Source: Clostridia bacterium (GTDB taxonomy: Bacteria; Bacillota; Clostridia; RGIG7378). From it: a stretch of 43,270 nt of DNA. The notes under the pieces were generated by a model. That model ran no database searches. It saw only the letters and a list, made by a program, of their open reading frames with translations, and was not told the origin of the DNA. This document shows, in pieces, positions 7,953-41,710 of the stretch; position 1 is the first letter of the stretch; each line of letters opens with the position of its first letter. Where the stretch lies: NCBI GenBank assembly GCA_017559445.1, contig JAFYSJ010000037.1, forward strand, positions 1 to 43,270. The letters run 5' to 3'. A program made the position numbers and the translations under genes.

Positions 7953-8692
7953 TGTCAGTTTACGTAATAGCAGACCTTCACCTGTCTTTTGGTGAAGAAG
8001 ATAAGCCCATGGATGTCTTTGGCGGCGCATGGGTTGGATATATGGATCGTATCCAGGAAAACTGGCTCAATACAGTTAAGCCTGAGGATACAGTAGTTAT
8101 TCCTGGAGATATTTCATGGGCCATGGGACTTAAGGAAAGTCTCGCGGATTTGACTGTGCTTAACAGCCTCCCAGGAAACAAAATTATCCTCAAGGGAAAC
8201 CACGATTACTGGTGGGATACCCTTAAGAAAATGCAGAACTTCTTAGAAGAAAATGAGCTAAATACAATAAAGGTATTATTCAATAATGCATTTTATGCAG
8301 ATGGAGTCATTATCTGTGGTTCTAGACTTTGGGATAGCGTAGGATCTAGCTCAGACTCGGCAGACCGCAAAACCTACTTAAGAGAAGTAGGTAGACTCCG
8401 TATATCCTTGGAGGCAGGCCTTAAGCTGAGGGAGCAGGTAGGAGAGGACACACCAATTGCTGTGTTTGCCCACTATCCACCAGTTGCTACATTTGATGGA
8501 AAGCAGGAGTTCATGAAGGTGATGCAGGACTATGGCGTGGCTAAGTGCTACTACGGACACCTACACGGAGCGGGCATCCAGGTTGCCACACAAGGCGATG
8601 TGGGTGGCGTTGAGTTGAAGCTGATTTCTGCAGATGCACTGGGATTTGTGCCATGGTTAGTGAACCGCTTAGTTAGTGAGCCGCTGCGCTAG
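7952..8692 (+). CDS. Metallophosphoesterase family protein
   Basis: Calcineurin-like phosphoesterase of 246 residues with the metal-ligand series in order: DLHLS (residues 8-12), GDISWA (~52), GNHDYWW (~81), a CGSRLWD segment, AHYPP (~171) and GHLHG (~200). The histidine and aspartate ligands for a two-metal centre are all present. Substrate unknown. It begins in the uvrC stop (TAATG). The last dozen residues (WLVNRLVSEPLR) are encoded by the start of the hairpin-repeat array at 8655, so the natural C-terminus has probably been replaced by repeat-derived residues. Confidence 0.9.
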   Translation: MSVYVIADLHLSFGEEDKPMDVFGGAWVGYMDRIQENWLNTVKPEDTVVIPGDISWAMGLKESLADLTVLNSLPGNKIILKGNHDYWWDTLKKMQNFLEENELNTIKVLFNNAFYADGVIICGSRLWDSVGSSSDSADRKTYLREVGRLRISLEAGLKLREQVGEDTPIAVFAHYPPVATFDGKQEFMKVMQDYGVAKCYYGHLHGAGIQVATQGDVGGVELKLISADALGFVPWLVNRLVSEPLR

Positions 8693-8840
8693 TAGGCCGC
8701 ACCGTTGGTGCTAGAGAGCCGCTGCGCTAGTAGGCCGCAACTGCGTTGCTAGTGAGCCGCAAGCAGAGCTTGCTAGTATACGCTCGTTTTACTCGCTAGT
8801 GAACCGCTGCGCTAGTAGCCGCACCGTTGGTGCTAGTGAA
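8655..8840 (-). repeat. Hairpin-module repeat array 1
   Basis: About eight modules with CTAG borders, in the orientation opposite to arrays at 14421 and 41325. Read on the minus strand, the stem cores run GCACC-AAC-GGTGC, CGCAGCGG, CGAGTAAAACGAG, GCAAGC-TCT-GCTTGC, GCAAC-GCA-GTTGC, CGCAGCGG, GCACC-AAC-GGTGC, CGCAGCGG, plus a degenerate module at the gene end. Modules are joined by GGCTCA, GGCCTA or GGCTA. The left end overlaps the metallophosphoesterase reading frame. Confidence 0.85.
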
Positions 8841-14309: not shown

Positions 14310-14398
14310 ATCCGCTACGCTAGTAGGCCGCAAGCAAAGCTTGCTAGTAACCGCAACTGCGTTGCTAGTGAAACGAACGCGTTGCGTTCTAGTGAAAT
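14310..14398 (-). repeat. Hairpin-module repeat array 2a (minus orientation)
   Basis: Four modules read on the minus strand: GAACGC-AAC-GCGTTC (this stem seen only here), GCAAC-GCA-GTTGC, GCAAGC-TTT-GCTTGC and CGTAGCGG, with CTAG borders. It is inverted relative to block 2b, which starts about 25 bases on; the intervening 14399-14420 carries no module. Confidence 0.8.
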
Positions 14399-14420
14399 GG
14401 CTATAGGAACAAAGAGACAT

Positions 14421-14836
14421 TCACTAAACACTAGCCGAAGGCGGCCTACTAGCGCAGCGGCTACTAGCACCAATGGTGCGGCTCACTAGCGAAGGCGGCT
14501 CACTAACGAGCTTTGCTCGTGGCCTACTAGCGCAGAGGCTACTAGCACCAACGGTGCGGCTCACTAGCGAAGGCGGCTCACTAACGAGCTTTGCTCGTGG
14601 CCTACTAGCGCAGCGGCTACTAGCACCAATGGTGCGGCTCACTAGCGAAGGCGGCTCACTAGCGAGTAAAACGAGCGTATACTAGCAAGCTCTGCTTGCG
14701 GCTCTCTAGGCGTAGCCGGCTCACTAACGAGCTTTGCTCGTGGCCTACTAGCGCAGCGGCCACTAGCACCAACGGTGCGGCTCACTAACGAGCTATGCTC
14801 GTGGTTAACTAACAAAGCTTTGCTTTGCGGAACACT
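14421..14836 (+). repeat. Hairpin-module repeat array 2b with 78-bp higher-order repeat
   Basis: About twenty CTAG/CTAA-bordered modules. Four types recur as a block: CGAAGGCGG (17 nt), ACGAGC-TTT-GCTCGT (24 nt), CGCAGCGG (15 nt) and GCACC-AAC-GGTGC (22 nt). They sum to 78 bp, and the block starts at 14486, 14564 and 14642. Other modules: CGAGTAAAACGAG, GCAAGC-TCT-GCTTGC, GGCGTAGCC and CAAAGC-TTT-GCTTTG. Between copies, changes sit in the loop (AAC/AAT, TTT/TCT, TTT/TAT) while stem arms stay identical. Confidence 0.9.
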
Positions 14837-14852
14837 ATTTCTTGTGTTAAAA
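14824..14852 (+). promoter_or_regulatory. Possible promoter of the aldo/keto reductase gene
   Basis: TTTGCG at 14824-14829, 17-base spacer and TTAAAA at 14847-14852 with an upstream TGTG. The -35 would be part of the last hairpin module. Weak match. Confidence 0.3.
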
Positions 14853-16134: not shown

Positions 16135-16208
16135 TGCGAAATGGTGTAACGGTAGCACTACTGACTCTGACTCAGTCTGTTGGGGTTCGAATCCCTATTT
16201 CGCAGCCA
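16135..16208 (+). tRNA. tRNA-Gln (anticodon CTG)
   Basis: 74 nt with genome-encoded CCA. Acceptor TGCGAAA/TTTCGCA, D arm GTGT/GCAC, anticodon stem ACTGA/TCAGT enclosing CTCTGAC, so the anticodon is CTG, reading CAG codons. T arm TGGGG/CCCTA with loop TTCGAAT. All arms pair. It is alone, with its own promoter and terminator. Confidence 0.95.
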
Positions 16209-19918: not shown

Positions 19919-22900
19919 ATGGGTAAGCGTTTATTCTCTAAGGTCCTTTCCGTTATTTTGGTTGTTTCTTTATTAATGACATCTGTGTCATTTCAAACCT
20001 TTGCTCAAAGCAATAATGAATTAGATATTCCTCTATCAGAACTTCAGAATATTAATCCGGTGGGGCCAATTGCTAGTGGCAGCATATATTATCCAACGTT
20101 TGTTAATCAATACTCATGGGATGAATCTTTAGAGGATGCTTATGTTTTAGGAGAACTCTTAGATCTTAGAACAGAGTCAAGTAAAACATATCAGCTATCT
20201 AATGGCGTTAACATGGTTTTAAGCTATGGAGATGCTATTCATAAAATGGAGAATGGGCAGTGGAAAGATATAACCACTAGCTTCACTCTGCGAAATGGCA
20301 TGTATACTACTAATTCAGAGGTTGAAATCTCCATTCCACAAGATATTGCAACAGGTACTACAACACTTGCACATAATGGATATTCTCTTAGTCTGGCCTT
20401 TTTAGGTCAGATTTCTGTTTCTTCTGGAAAGGAAACTAGAGGTCTAGTAGCAAAGGAGAAGGAAATTACTATCTCTTCCACTGAAAAGATGACCCTGGAG
20501 ACACTTAGCAACTCTAAGGTAAAAATAGACACAAATAATTTAACTTCTGTTGAAGGTCTTAAAGTAACAGAGATTCAGGATCATTTCTTGGATAACATGT
20601 ATGAAGCAGCAACATATAAGGATGTATTTAATGGCGTAGATTTAGAATATGTTGTTACTCATAAGGGAATTAAGGAATCTATTGTTATTGAAAGCCTTTC
20701 TGTAGCTACAAGCAAATATGCATATAGTATAGAAGTGGATGGAGTTGCATTAAGACTTCAGGAGGATAACACAATTTTTGCATATAGCAATGAGGATGGT
20801 ACAGAGGTATTTCGTTTATCTGCTCCATACTTAGAAGATAATAATGGAGATGTGTCTACAGATATCGTTGTAACACTTACGGAGACAGCAGATAACACAT
20901 ATATTCTGCAATATAATTTACCTCTTGATTGGTTAAAGACAGCAGCATTCCCAGTTGTATTGGATCCAACAGTTTCTGCTGTATCTACAAATACTACAAT
21001 TGAAGATATTGCAGTGGCAGAGACCAATAGCGACCTTGATACATTTGGATACAACGTTATGTATCTAAGAGCTGGTAATAGTTCCTACTATGGTAGAATT
21101 AGATCCTTCGTTAAGTTTAACGAGTTGCCATATCTAACCTCTGCAGATGTAGTTGTAGACGCAACATTAAAGCTATATAACCCATTGTCTGAGTCTGCTT
21201 CCATGGTAATAGATGTGCATAAGGTAACAGAAAATTGGGTGTCAAATACTAATGGTGTAAGCATGAACTGGTCAACTCAGCCAGATTTCTCTAACGTTAT
21301 ACAGGATTACCAGGTGGTAACAGGAGTTGACTATTATGAGTGGGATATCACAGATATTGCCAGGGACTGGTTTGCTACAGGAAATAATACAGGTGTTGCA
21401 ATTACTGCACATGATGAATCAACAGTAACAACACAGAAGAAATTCTATTCATCAGATATAGACAATCATATGCAATATCCTCTATTAACGCTGTTTTATA
21501 TAAATAATACAGGTTTAGAGAGTTATTGGGACTATACAGAGGTATCAGCTAAGAGAGCTGGCACAGGATATATTAATCACTTCTCAGGTAACCTTGTATG
21601 GGTACACCAGGACTTGGGATACGATGGTAACAGAGCTCCAGTATTTGTTAGTCACGTATATAATGCAAATGATTCTTTGGACAATAGGTTTGGATTAGGT
21701 TATGGCTGGAGAACAAACTATAACCAGTTGGTTTATCAATTAGAGGATTACGATATCTATGTATGGGAAGATGAGGATGGTACACGACATTATTTTGAGT
21801 ATCCAGACGAATCAAATGTATATACAGATACAGACGGCTTAGGACTAAGCCTTACTAGGATTGCATCTGGAACATCATATACATACACCATAACAGATTC
21901 TAGTGGTAATGTAAGTAAATTTGATAATTTAGGTAGATTAGTCCAGATTTCAGATAATCAGACACACAAGTCTTATATATACATTAACTATAAATCATCT
22001 GTAGCAACTTCTGCAGATAGATATAAGATTAGCAGCATAGAAGATGGCGTAGCTAGAGAGTACATGTTCTCTTATAGTTCATCTACAGGTTTGCTTTCCT
22101 ATATTAAATTCTATGGAATTACAGGTGGAGAGCTAAATAGAGTTAGCTATAGTTATAACAGTAAAAGTGAGTTAACCGACGTAACATACAGTAATGGTGC
22201 TGGAGAAACATTCTTTGGATATGGAGCAAACCATTTACTTAGTATGGTTATGGAGAATTGTGAGTATAGATTAAACTTTACTTACAACACAACTGTTGCT
22301 GGCTTACCAAATAGAATTGTAAAGGTTCGAGAGGCAGATAATACAGATCTCGATTCTGAAGCAACAGAGGATGGAGGCTATATTACATTTAAGTATGGCC
22401 ATAATGAGACTAAGTTTACAGATAGGGCTGGTAGAACATTAATCAGTCAGTTTAACTATTGGGGCAATACAATCTGTATTCAGGACGATCAAGGCAATGC
22501 CACATATTATAGCTATTCTAATAATAAAGCAAATAGTGCTGAAACAATGAACCAGCTGAGATTGTCATCTAACCTACAAAATACTGTAGGTAATCACATG
22601 ATACAGCCAAGCATTCAATATTATGATGACTACTGGTATTCAGTCACAGGAAATACAGATGGTACAAGAACAGATGGAACAATCTCTCATACCGGAAAGA
22701 GATCCATTGCTCTAACTAAAACAACTGCATCTGCGACAGCAAATGCTATGTATTCTGATGTGATGAGTGTATCTCCAGGTCAGACTGTAACTTTTTCAGC
22801 ATACGTTAATACAACGGGCCTTTCTGAAGATGGATTTTATTTAGGTGTTGGAACAAGTATAAGCACTGCAATTAGGAGTGAAAAGATAACTAATACAGAG

Positions 22901-25900
22901 GGTCAGTGGGAAAGGTTTGAAGTAACATATAAGAATGAGACTACTTCTACACAATCTCTTCGTCCATACATTATCCAGTATGGTACAGGTACTATCTGTA
23001 TAGATTCAGTACAGCTTGAAAGAGCAGAGTCAGCAAGCAGATTTAATTATATTGGAGATGGTGATTTTAGTAATGGTGGAACATCTACCTATTTTTCTAA
23101 TTGGATCCCTAGAAAAAATGATAGCAACGGCCGTACTTCAATTACAAGAGTGAATATATCTAGTGCAATATCCGGAGCAAGTAGTCCGGCTAAGGTCTTG
23201 GATAATTATTGCATGAAGATTGTAGGAGATCCAACAGCCAGACTATATGCATACCAAACAATATATGTTAGTGGAAATCAAGGCGATAGCTATGTTCTAG
23301 GTGGTTGGGCAAAGGGAGACTCTGCACCACTTATAGAGGGAACTAATAGAACCTTTGGACTTCAAATTGAGTTTTTAAATAACAATAAAGTAGTAAATAC
23401 AACATCCGTATCCTTTAATCCAGATATGGATTCTACAGACTTGTGGCAATTTGTATCTACTGCAGCTGTTGCAGAGGGCACATATACATCTATTAGAGTT
23501 ACAGTACAGTATGACTATAATGTGAATACTGCTTATTTTGATGGAATCCAGCTCTTTAAAGAAGGATTTGGAACCGTATATGGTTACGGTGAAGAAGAAT
23601 TGTCAGATGACGAGTTAGACATGACAAGTATGACTGACGCTAATGGCAATAGAATGGAGATTGAGTATGAGAATAATTTGCCTGTTAGCTCAAAAGACAA
23701 CCAGGGTAATCAGACAACCTATGTGTACGATTCAAAGGGCAATTTGACAAAAGAAATTGATTCCGATGGTGTTATATACAAATATGAATATAACAGTTTT
23801 GGTCAGGTAACTCAGACTACAATTACAAACCCTGCAGATGGTACAGTATTAACAAGCATTACAGAATATACTCCAAATGGAAACTACGTATTATCCGAGA
23901 CAGATACAGAAGGAAATACTACATATTATGAATATGATGAAAACACAGGACTTCTAAAATCAATCCAATATCCAGAGGACACTAGGGATACAAAGACAGA
24001 GTATATTTACAATAGTCAGTATAACCTTATTTCCACACGTAAGGGTAATGGAGATGGCACATATGTTACAGTAGATGCTACATATACAAGTGGCACTCAA
24101 ACAGGAATAACACATTCCAATACTGCAACAAAGTCAACTACATATACTCTGCAGTATTATAACTTTGATATTGTTAAGGCAATAAATGTCGGAAACAGAA
24201 CTCTGGCAAGCTATACATATACAAATCTTTACGATAGGGATTTAGCAAGCCTTACATATGGTAATGGTGCAACAGAGGAATATGTTTACGATAGCCAAGG
24301 TAGAGTTATTGAGGTGGAAAGCACAAGCGGAACATCCACAAAGACTCTTACATATACCTATGACTCATTCGGCAACATAATTAAGGAGGTAGATACAGAG
24401 GCAGGAGTAGAGAGAAGATATAAGTATTCTGAATCTGGTAGCATTATCCGTTATACAGAGAAAACTATCCAAGGCAATAACACAAAGTACGATGTTTACT
24501 ATGTGTATAACAACCTTGGTCAGTTAACTAAAGAAATCCACACAGTAGGAGGAAATACCTATACCTACACATATACTTATGACTCAAATGGTCAAAAGAT
24601 AGGTAGCAGTGTAGTAAAATTAAATTCCACACAACCTACAGTAACAGAGGAAATAGTGTATGACGAGCTTGGTAGACTTGAGGATATTCATGTTGTAGAA
24701 AATGGTGATTCTCCTGATACCGTTTACTATTCTGTTGGATATTATGAGGATAGCAATAGGGTGCAGAATTGGAGAATAGATGGTGGATTTATTAATCACA
24801 GCTATATTTATTCTTATGACGATAATGGAAATATCACAGAGATTGCATTCACCTCTCTTTATGGAAATGGTGATATATCCTACAGTTATGATGCATTAGG
24901 CCAGCTTATTAGAGTAAATGACCAGACACTTGGAACATCCGGTGAGACGTGGACCTACGCTTATGATCTTGGTGGTAATATCGTCTCTAAGAGTAGATAT
25001 GCCTATACAACAGGAACTCTAGGCACAGCCTTAGAGACAATCTCTTATACTTATGGTGATGATACTTGGGGCGATTTGCTTACTAGTTACAATGGACAAG
25101 CAATTACTTATGACCAAATTGGTAACCCATTAAGTGATGACACATGGAACTATACATGGGAATATGGTAGACAGTTAGCTGCACAGAGTAGTGGCAATAC
25201 TACTTGGACATATGATTATGATGCAAGTGGTCAGAGAATTTCAAGAACAGATAACAATACTACTTATGAGTATGGTTATTATGGTAGCACTTTGGTTTAT
25301 GAGAAGATAACTCAAGGTAATACAACTGTTGCCGAAATGTACATTACATATGGAGAGGCAGGTCCTCTGTATATTGAATATAACGGCACAATATACTACT
25401 ATATGCTCAATGCACAGGGAGATGTAGTTGGATTAACTGAGTGGGATGTAACACCTGCAGTTCTCTATACCTACAATGCATGGGGAGAGCTTGAGAGTAT
25501 TACTGGCAATCTTGCAGGTACTCTTGGTGTCCACAATCCATTGAGATACCGCGGATATGTCTACGACACAGAGACAGAGCAGTACTACCTAAACAGCAGA
25601 TACTATAACCCTGAGTGGGGCAGGTTTATTAACGCAGATGATATTGCCTTTTGTGGTGCTCCTGGTTCTATTACAAATTATAATTTATACACATATTGTC
25701 AAAATAATCCCATAAATTATTATGATAGCACAGGATATTTAGCTGCATCTGTTATGAGATTAACACAAGCATTTAGCATATCTGCTTTGTTTTCGGCTTA
25801 TGCAAGTGGACTATATACAGCTTTTTCTGCAACCTTAGCAAAGATTTCATTATATGTCACCGGTGTTTTATTGCCTAAGATTACAGCGATGTTTTGGTGG

Positions 25901-26200
25901 CAACCTTGGGCTATTGCAGGAATTGTTAGTGCCGCGGTTGTAATTGTAATTACTGCCGTAACAGTTTATACAAACACACAGGTTGCAAAAATTAATGAAA
26001 GCAACATGAATAAAACCGTGGAGGAAATTTTAAAAACAAAAAAGGGAAGCATAAAAAATGCTCCATTACCTCCAGGAGGTCCAAGTTGGAAAGACATATT
26101 AAAGAAGACATTGAGGGAAATAAAGGAACTTGCACAAAAGGGAAAGAAGGGTTATAAGGAAATCTATAAATTATTAACGGATGCGAGGTTTAATAGATGA
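19919..26200 (+). CDS. Secreted RHS/YD-repeat polymorphic toxin with carbohydrate-binding-like domains
   Basis: 2093 residues. Signal peptide at residues 1-30 (hydrophobic VLSVILVVSLLMTSV). Then a domain with the DNRLRE look (about 350-530: MYLRAG, LKLYNP, WDITDIARDWF), the RHS N-terminal strand region (~545-880), two jelly-roll carbohydrate-binding-like modules (~890-1220, each with a FSAYV- or GGWAKG-type core), and many YD repeats (~1240-1860, units like YTYDSFGNIIKE). The RHS core (~1873-1935) has RYYNPEWGRFINADD and NPINYYDSTGY. After it comes a variable 155-residue tip with a membrane-like segment (~1990-2017) and a short basic end (PPGGPSWKDILKK). By family knowledge the shell encloses the tip toxin. 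The toxin activity is not recognised. AT-rich codons set it apart from housekeeping neighbours. Confidence 0.9.
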   Translation: MGKRLFSKVLSVILVVSLLMTSVSFQTFAQSNNELDIPLSELQNINPVGPIASGSIYYPTFVNQYSWDESLEDAYVLGELLDLRTESSKTYQLSNGVNMVLSYGDAIHKMENGQWKDITTSFTLRNGMYTTNSEVEISIPQDIATGTTTLAHNGYSLSLAFLGQISVSSGKETRGLVAKEKEITISSTEKMTLETLSNSKVKIDTNNLTSVEGLKVTEIQDHFLDNMYEAATYKDVFNGVDLEYVVTHKGIKESIVIESLSVATSKYAYSIEVDGVALRLQEDNTIFAYSNEDGTEVFRLSAPYLEDNNGDVSTDIVVTLTETADNTYILQYNLPLDWLKTAAFPVVLDPTVSAVSTNTTIEDIAVAETNSDLDTFGYNVMYLRAGNSSYYGRIRSFVKFNELPYLTSADVVVDATLKLYNPLSESASMVIDVHKVTENWVSNTNGVSMNWSTQPDFSNVIQDYQVVTGVDYYEWDITDIARDWFATGNNTGVAITAHDESTVTTQKKFYSSDIDNHMQYPLLTLFYINNTGLESYWDYTEVSAKRAGTGYINHFSGNLVWVHQDLGYDGNRAPVFVSHVYNANDSLDNRFGLGYGWRTNYNQLVYQLEDYDIYVWEDEDGTRHYFEYPDESNVYTDTDGLGLSLTRIASGTSYTYTITDSSGNVSKFDNLGRLVQISDNQTHKSYIYINYKSSVATSADRYKISSIEDGVAREYMFSYSSSTGLLSYIKFYGITGGELNRVSYSYNSKSELTDVTYSNGAGETFFGYGANHLLSMVMENCEYRLNFTYNTTVAGLPNRIVKVREADNTDLDSEATEDGGYITFKYGHNETKFTDRAGRTLISQFNYWGNTICIQDDQGNATYYSYSNNKANSAETMNQLRLSSNLQNTVGNHMIQPSIQYYDDYWYSVTGNTDGTRTDGTISHTGKRSIALTKTTASATANAMYSDVMSVSPGQTVTFSAYVNTTGLSEDGFYLGVGTSISTAIRSEKITNTEGQWERFEVTYKNETTSTQSLRPYIIQYGTGTICIDSVQLERAESASRFNYIGDGDFSNGGTSTYFSNWIPRKNDSNGRTSITRVNISSAISGASSPAKVLDNYCMKIVGDPTARLYAYQTIYVSGNQGDSYVLGGWAKGDSAPLIEGTNRTFGLQIEFLNNNKVVNTTSVSFNPDMDSTDLWQFVSTAAVAEGTYTSIRVTVQYDYNVNTAYFDGIQLFKEGFGTVYGYGEEELSDDELDMTSMTDANGNRMEIEYENNLPVSSKDNQGNQTTYVYDSKGNLTKEIDSDGVIYKYEYNSFGQVTQTTITNPADGTVLTSITEYTPNGNYVLSETDTEGNTTYYEYDENTGLLKSIQYPEDTRDTKTEYIYNSQYNLISTRKGNGDGTYVTVDATYTSGTQTGITHSNTATKSTTYTLQYYNFDIVKAINVGNRTLASYTYTNLYDRDLASLTYGNGATEEYVYDSQGRVIEVESTSGTSTKTLTYTYDSFGNIIKEVDTEAGVERRYKYSESGSIIRYTEKTIQGNNTKYDVYYVYNNLGQLTKEIHTVGGNTYTYTYTYDSNGQKIGSSVVKLNSTQPTVTEEIVYDELGRLEDIHVVENGDSPDTVYYSVGYYEDSNRVQNWRIDGGFINHSYIYSYDDNGNITEIAFTSLYGNGDISYSYDALGQLIRVNDQTLGTSGETWTYAYDLGGNIVSKSRYAYTTGTLGTALETISYTYGDDTWGDLLTSYNGQAITYDQIGNPLSDDTWNYTWEYGRQLAAQSSGNTTWTYDYDASGQRISRTDNNTTYEYGYYGSTLVYEKITQGNTTVAEMYITYGEAGPLYIEYNGTIYYYMLNAQGDVVGLTEWDVTPAVLYTYNAWGELESITGNLAGTLGVHNPLRYRGYVYDTETEQYYLNSRYYNPEWGRFINADDIAFCGAPGSITNYNLYTYCQNNPINYYDSTGYLAASVMRLTQAFSISALFSAYASGLYTAFSATLAKISLYVTGVLLPKITAMFWWQPWAIAGIVSAAVVIVITAVTVYTNTQVAKINESNMNKTVEEILKTKKGSIKNAPLPPGGPSWKDILKKTLREIKELAQKGKKGYKEIYKLLTDARFNR

Positions 26201-27756: not shown

Positions 27757-27877
27757 TTGGGCAATGTATTTTGCCCCCATATTGTAGGCAACTGACGTTT
27801 AGCGGATTAACCGCAGGGAGCCACTTATTGGAATTGTCGCGCGTCTGGGCAGCCTTACTTTTTGTAAGGCTGCCTTT
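27757..27877 (+). ncRNA. ZTP (pfl) riboswitch
   Basis: The leader shows the conserved parts of the ZMP/ZTP-sensing aptamer in order: GGCAACTGACG (27787-27797), a hairpin AGCGG...CCGCA, GGGAGCCAC (27816-27824), and the 3' end CGCGCGTCTGGGCAG (27838-27852). A 5' hairpin GGGCAA/TTGCCC (27759-27776) precedes it. The final GGGCA is shared with the first arm of the terminator at 27848, giving a ligand-dependent choice. ZTP riboswitches typically switch on purine and folate genes when ZMP/ZTP builds up from lack of 10-formyl-tetrahydrofolate, and purE is directly downstream. Assignment from memory of the consensus, not a covariance search. Confidence 0.8.
27848..27877 (+). terminator. Terminator of the ZTP riboswitch
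   Basis: GGCAGCCTTAC (27848-27858), loop TTTTT, GTAAGGCTGCC (27864-27874), a perfect 11-bp stem followed by TTTAATTATATT. Its left arm overlaps the aptamer 3' end. Confidence 0.85.
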
Positions 27878-41324: not shown

Positions 41325-41710
41325 AGTTAGCGCAGCCGATTCACTAGCCGAAGGCGGCCACTAGCGAGCTTTGCTCGTGGCTCACTAGCCGCAGCCGATT
41401 CACTAGCCGAAGGCGGCCTACTAGCAACGCAGTTGCGGCCTACTAGGCGTAGCCGGCTCACTAGCCGAAGGCGGCTACTAGCAACGCAGTTGCGGCCTAC
41501 TAGCGCAGCGGTTCACTAACGAGCTTTGCTCGTGGCTCACTAGGCGCAGCCGATTCACTAGCCGAAGGCGGCCTACTAGCGCAGCGGCTCACTAGCCGAA
41601 GGCGGCCTACTAGGCGCAGCCGGTTCACTAGCACCAACGGTGCGATTACTAGCAAGCTTTGCTTGCGGCTCACTAGCCGAAGGCGGCCACTAGTGCGATA
41701 GCACATATCA
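41325..41710 (+). repeat. Hairpin-module repeat array 3
   Basis: About twenty modules in the + orientation. The most frequent core is CCGAAGGCGG (six to seven copies), then GGCGCAGCC- or GGCGTAGCC-type, CGCAGCGG, CGAGC-TTT-GCTCG, GCAAC-GCA-GTTGC (twice), GCACC-AAC-GGTGC, GCAAGC-TTT-GCTTGC and a final GTGC-GATA-GCAC seen nowhere else. Linkers are GGCCTA, GGCTCA and GATTCA. No long higher-order repeat is seen here, unlike array 2b. Confidence 0.9.

Follow-up and report, generated by a model that had tools for sequence, protein, structure and literature searches.

The 43,270-nucleotide stretch of Clostridia bacterium DNA analysed here (the window) carries three arrays of small hairpin modules, of which the main one lies close to a short composite of the opposite orientation. 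The features referred to below are:

8661-8839 (approximate), minus strand: second array, eight parsed modules, after a metallophosphoesterase gene
14314-14392, minus strand: four-module composite (GAACGC, GCAAC, GCAAGC, GC), opposite in orientation to the main array
14423-14840, plus strand: main array, some 19 hairpin modules that all point the same way, head to tail
14443-14666, plus strand: internal 78-bp block repeat, four modules per block, 2.9 copies
14526-14540, plus strand: module GC(GCA)GA, an example of stem substitution, reading GCGCAGA and thus a broken GC/GC stem
14658-14677, plus strand: tandem-GA module GC.GA.GT(AAA)AC.GA.GC, whose inner pairs covary elsewhere (AT/AT, AC/GT)
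41325-41690 (approximate), plus strand: third array, 18 parsed modules, downstream of glutamate dehydrogenase

A hairpin array had been predicted at 14421-14836, and modules were indeed parsed from 14423 to 14840. Each unit runs from ACTA through a hairpin, a GG and a tail of 2-3 nt to the next ACTA, and the stem types present include GCC, GC, GCACC, a GCGAAGGC variant that has lost one stem base, ACGAGC, GA-GT, GCAAGC and GGC. The CTAG/CTAA borders of the original prediction do mark modules, but their fourth letter is the first stem base (CTA[G...C]GG or CTA[A...T]GG), with CTAA denoting the stem type that closes with an A-T pair. Likewise, the 78-bp block placed at 14486, 14564 and 14642 is a true repeat, but it spans 14443-14666 and comprises two full blocks, the third copy departing about 26 bp after approximately 14641. 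The locus also proved larger than described, with four modules of opposite orientation at 14314-14392, and two further arrays lie elsewhere in the window; near-copies of the four-module composite with common flanks occur in genome stretches L036, L049 and L041, and the cluster at 14314-14802 is the only one of mixed orientation.

The main array contains ten perfect inverted repeats with 5-nt arms and 3-4 nt loops, whereas 1000 dinucleotide shuffles average 1.6 and never exceed 7. Folding of the whole array was not clearly better than that of dinucleotide shuffles (z of -1.1 and -1.7 as DNA, -1.2 and -2.3 as RNA); one large fold of the whole array was accordingly rejected, and the folding signal is that of local hairpins only. 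The main array has no Rfam match, the sole matches in the window being a ZMP/ZTP riboswitch and a tRNA (27778-27857 and 16135-16205). The second array supplies the stop codon (TAG at 8690-8692) of the preceding metallophosphoesterase gene, whose last codons and stop (8657-8692) are read from the repeats, giving a repeat-encoded protein tail. The third starts just past a stem and T-run resembling a terminator and has its left flank in common with an array in genome stretch L045. Elsewhere in the window, an open reading frame of 2093 amino acids occupies 19919-26200, and a short 12-bp tandem repeat, CCAACAGCAACA, lies at the contig end (43233-43270).

A genome scan, proposed with the original prediction as a check on confinement to one contig, showed the modules to be dispersed: the junction motif GGCYNACTARC has 323 matches (171 + 152) in the 1.68-Mb genome, which is 96% complete, compared to 2 (1 + 1) for the reversed control. 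Fetched stretches totalling 464 kb (about 28% of the genome, drawn from around motif matches and the starts of contigs C15-C30, leaving out the masked stretch L062) yielded 442 parsed modules in 44 oriented arrays, and extrapolation by motif count gives an estimated 87 or so arrays (roughly 90) and about 870 modules genome-wide. The starts of contigs C15-C30, picked independently of motif matches, contained 15 arrays over 250 kb. In several cases a contig stops within an array, as would be expected of short-read assembly breaking at true repeats. At the array borders, A occupies position -1 of the 5' end in 36/41 cases and ACT the 3' end in 31/41, while YTCACTA is present at both ends of most arrays.

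In the single congener compared (ClpX 91% identical) the junction motif is absent, and the approximately 93 kb read contain no arrays. ACT flanks most arrays on both sides, but the corresponding intergenic DNA of the congener contains other genes and could not be aligned for reading an empty site, as a MITE target-site test would require. In 389 further genomes of the class, motif counts are at chance level, and the best scattered matches, once fetched, were isolated and had no neighbouring modules. An exact-pattern contig scan for other bacterial carriers returned five isolated chance matches in unrelated taxa, a blastn search against plasmids and phages gave no match, and three viral contigs had one exact motif each and no arrays. 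The arrays are best read as species-restricted and lineage-specific, and from their distribution we infer movement between loci. Array flanks share other dispersed repeats, namely heptamer runs (TAGTGTT)n, which have TAGTG in common with the hairpin linkers, TGTTCCAATGGTCATTT... and CGCCCGCTACTTCCGAAGCGCGGGAGGCACGGTTC (L036, L043, L046, L049, L064, L072 and others). The congener, which has no hairpin arrays, carries heptamer runs of other sequence, TTACCTC and TTAAAAG (L057:15099-15155 and L095:3221-3288).

About twelve stem types recur (GC, GCC, GGC, GCGC, GCACC, GCAAC, GGACC, GCAAGC, ACGAGC, GAACGC and two tandem-GA types), a list compiled by eye from parse outputs and then applied in the counts. 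Relative to type consensus, 26/3572 stem positions (about 0.7%) and 168/1362 loop positions (about 12%) are substituted in a parse that limited stem mismatches and allowed none in the 2-bp type. Splitting arrays at ACTA and leaving stem mismatches uncapped, a second parse gave 0.64% for longer and 1.03% for shorter stems and 12.0% and 10.6% for the loops. Stems are therefore not as variable as loops, and the loop-only changes noted in three types (AAC/AAT, TTT/TCT and TTT/TAT) were read correctly. The accompanying claim of unchanged stems holds genome-wide as a low rate (0.6-1.0% vs 10.6-12% in loops) but not as complete invariance, as the module at 14526-14540 and GCGAAGGC demonstrate.

Within a type the stems are fixed with almost no covariation, and sequence recognition could explain this as well as folding. 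Between types, compensating differences are found: the inner pairs of the two tandem-GA types differ in this manner (GT/AC, AT/AT, AC/GT), and ACGAGC(TTT)GCTCGT is two compensating pairs apart from GCAAGC(TTT)GCTTGC. The latter two types stand in for each other at a single position among copies of a composite element (14330-14347 of the window vs L049), and a G-T intermediate between them, GCGAGC/GCTCGT, exists.

The loops show a conservation of their own. In seven stem types with GNA loops, G1 and A3 are kept in 269/286 modules (94%), while the middle base is C in 119, A in 114, T in 36 and G in none, so that GGA loops are missing from the ACTA strand in these types. The loop closes with C-G in five of the seven (GC, GGC, GCC, GCAAC, GGACC) and with T-A in the two tandem-GA types; in the GCGC type it is mostly GNNA with a pyrimidine as third base. 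With the stems and loop G1 and A3 conserved, structure is what is kept, in support of that part of the earlier suggestion of selection or copying based on structure.

DNA hairpins with d(GNA) or d(GNNA) loops on at least two G-C pairs form extraordinarily stable, nuclease-resistant mini-hairpins, GCGAAGC having a Tm of 78 C (PMC4686876; such mini-hairpins are also described in PMC10527192). The GNA and GCGC types have loops of this kind, although only five of the seven GNA types close them with C-G, and the modules GC(GAA/GCA/GTA)GC and GCGC(GNNA)GCGC are the published d(GCGNAGC)/GNNA sequences or longer-stem versions of them; the papers deal with them as fragments in vitro, but in this genome they make up arrays that occur genome-wide. 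The TNN- and AAC-loop types show no GNA signature on the ACTA strand and lie outside this group. Because the loops match published stable DNA mini-hairpins, folding of a DNA strand is a better fit than folding of RNA, and for the GNA/GNNA types, though not for the TNN and AAC types, the loop pattern suggests that the folded molecule is the ACTA strand as single-stranded DNA.

The order of modules within arrays is patterned too. Modules of the same type are adjacent in 8/391 pairs, compared to 58.8 expected (sd 6.2, minimum 39 in 5000 within-array order shuffles), and all eight have short stems (six with the 2-bp GC stem, two with GCC; none with a stem of at least 4 bp). The depletion persists when block repeats are collapsed (7/350 vs 40.6 expected) and is limited to immediate neighbours, pairs at distance two being as frequent as expected (59 vs 53). 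Pair order is uneven, GA-GT being followed by GCAAGC eight times and the reverse order never occurring, and different arrays have exact segments of 55-106 bp in common; arrays therefore probably exchange or copy blocks. Most REP families likewise prefer heterodimers, for which De Nocera and colleagues saw no obvious explanation and suggested clearance by SbcCD (PMC3733652). With no SbcD found in this genome (96% complete), purging of homodimers by SbcCD as published does not fit here, and if the homodimer-clearance idea is right a different deletion route is needed.

With respect to genes, 16 arrays have their 3' end at most 25 bp from the stop codon of an opposing gene and a single array has its 5' end within the same distance of a co-oriented stop (binomial p 0.0003), the distances being approximate as genes were called with a simple ORF and codon model. 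A bias of array orientation relative to replication was also considered and rejected (28 vs 16 against the majority gene strand, not significant). A transcription-boundary role, one of those originally proposed, has positional support only, from the stop-codon bias. In several loci, however, the stop codon and the array are set apart by a distinct stem with a T-run that looks like an intrinsic terminator, so a role in that gene's mRNA is not general.

This positional bias is the main argument for hairpins selected as RNA within the 3' UTR of the upstream gene, where they might protect the mRNA 3' end, stop translation or set a transcription boundary, and the linkers, which in the gene sense read TAGTGA or TAGTAG and hence contain stop codons, agree with it. 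We nevertheless consider such a device unlikely. In the gene sense the loops of the GNA types become TNC, which belongs to no class of stable RNA loops that is known, and because the GNNA loops have a pyrimidine as third base, the opposite strand does not give GNRA loops either. The window also has arrays in the sense orientation, and the missing Rfam match and the intervening terminators likewise speak against the device. A quite improbable explanation dispenses with selection on structure altogether, the repeats being driven by slippage, their stems perfected by hairpin-templated correction (quasipalindrome template switching) and their loops left to drift. Template switching converts imperfect to perfect inverted repeats, as discussed in PMC6649704 for Nematomorpha mitochondrial genomes, which resemble this genome in keeping many palindromes but whose palindromes are long, lie within coding genes and share no lexicon. 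Such correction would protect stems and not loops, and the block duplications look like slippage-driven growth. On the other hand, it should copy stem changes to both arms and produce a continuum of stems instead of about twelve fixed ones, and it leaves unexplained both the conserved loop G1 and A3 and the loss of like nearest but not next-nearest neighbours.

Known repeat classes were compared on the same evidence. The arrays are neither a microsatellite nor a CRISPR, as had been recognised, having no unique spacers but short, repeated linkers; GG and a linker instead of T runs follow the modules, setting them apart from intrinsic terminators, and integron attC arrays are not indicated, with no Phage_integrase match in the genome. 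The resemblance to REP/BIME elements (PMC3733652) that was originally proposed is borne out at the level of dispersed REP-like palindromic repeats: both are short, high-copy intergenic palindromes of several stem families, found in dimers or clusters with a preference for heterodimers in most families. In contrast to REP, the modules lack a GTAG or CGTC tag and have instead ACTA before and GG after the hairpin in most of the 442 cases; their stems of 2-6 bp are joined by short linkers into arrays of up to about 20 hairpins, with some twelve stems mixed per array, and each array keeps one orientation where BIMEs alternate head-to-head and tail-to-tail. TnpA-REP REPtrons and IS200/IS605 ends (PMC8266576) similarly feature a small, strand-specific DNA hairpin whose stem is preceded on its 5' side by a tetranucleotide, with CT near the foot, but here the stem varies between modules while the foot is constant.

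Mobilisation as non-autonomous single-strand elements by a Y1/HUH transposase, as in REP/RAYT systems, would be in keeping with short hairpins, a tetranucleotide foot, high copy number, intergenic location and strand polarity (PMC3733652, PMC8266576). The Y1_Tnp profile has no match in this genome (96% complete, so that a missed gene is possible) or in the congener, whereas 5/14 control genomes match, and Phage_integrase, Resolvase, RVT_1 and the TnpB zinc-ribbon family are likewise without a match in this genome but matched in controls; the congener lacks the same enzyme families apart from weak sub-threshold matches. The unseen single-strand transposase or tyrosine recombinase of the original prediction is thereby weakened, no Y1/RAYT, tyrosine or serine recombinase or reverse transcriptase having been found. 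Together with the missing GTAG tag and the uniform head-to-tail orientation of all modules in an array, this makes a REP/RAYT system very improbable, and the arrays are best read as REP-like by behaviour and not by membership. Tyrosine recombinases, XerC/XerD included, and serine recombinases were not found in this genome or the congener. The only rve match in the genome is an IS3-type transposase orfB of 292 amino acids on the short contig C38 (L098:306-1184); as a double-strand DDE transposase with no visible link to the arrays, it was rejected as their mover.

For the arrays as a whole, we give about even chances to lineage-specific dispersed modular palindromic repeats that work like REP/BIME DNA and are propagated via a single-strand DNA fold. 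The mini-hairpin of each module lies between two copies of YTCACTA. During replication or repair the ACTA strand would fold as single-stranded DNA, and this fold may keep the module propagating, while arrays would grow as blocks of modules are copied, the YTCACTA junctions being the sites of slippage or template switching. Identical neighbours would form a longer palindrome and be deleted, and arrays may persist at the sites least damaging to genes, immediately after stop codons and terminators. That the arrays constitute mobile or self-propagating DNA of a new kind, built of stable single-stranded mini-hairpins that come from a fixed lexicon and obey nearest-neighbour exclusion, with a spread that reads structure without HUH, tyrosine or serine recombinases, is a tentative and rather doubtful extension of this reading.

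The neighbour rule is very strong, acts on immediate neighbours only and is seen in a genome that yielded no SbcD, which makes it testable with about twelve interchangeable stems. The arrays would be a natural case of stable loops specific to DNA in use across a whole genome, and could reveal selection acting on single-strand DNA folding as such in a bacterial chromosome.
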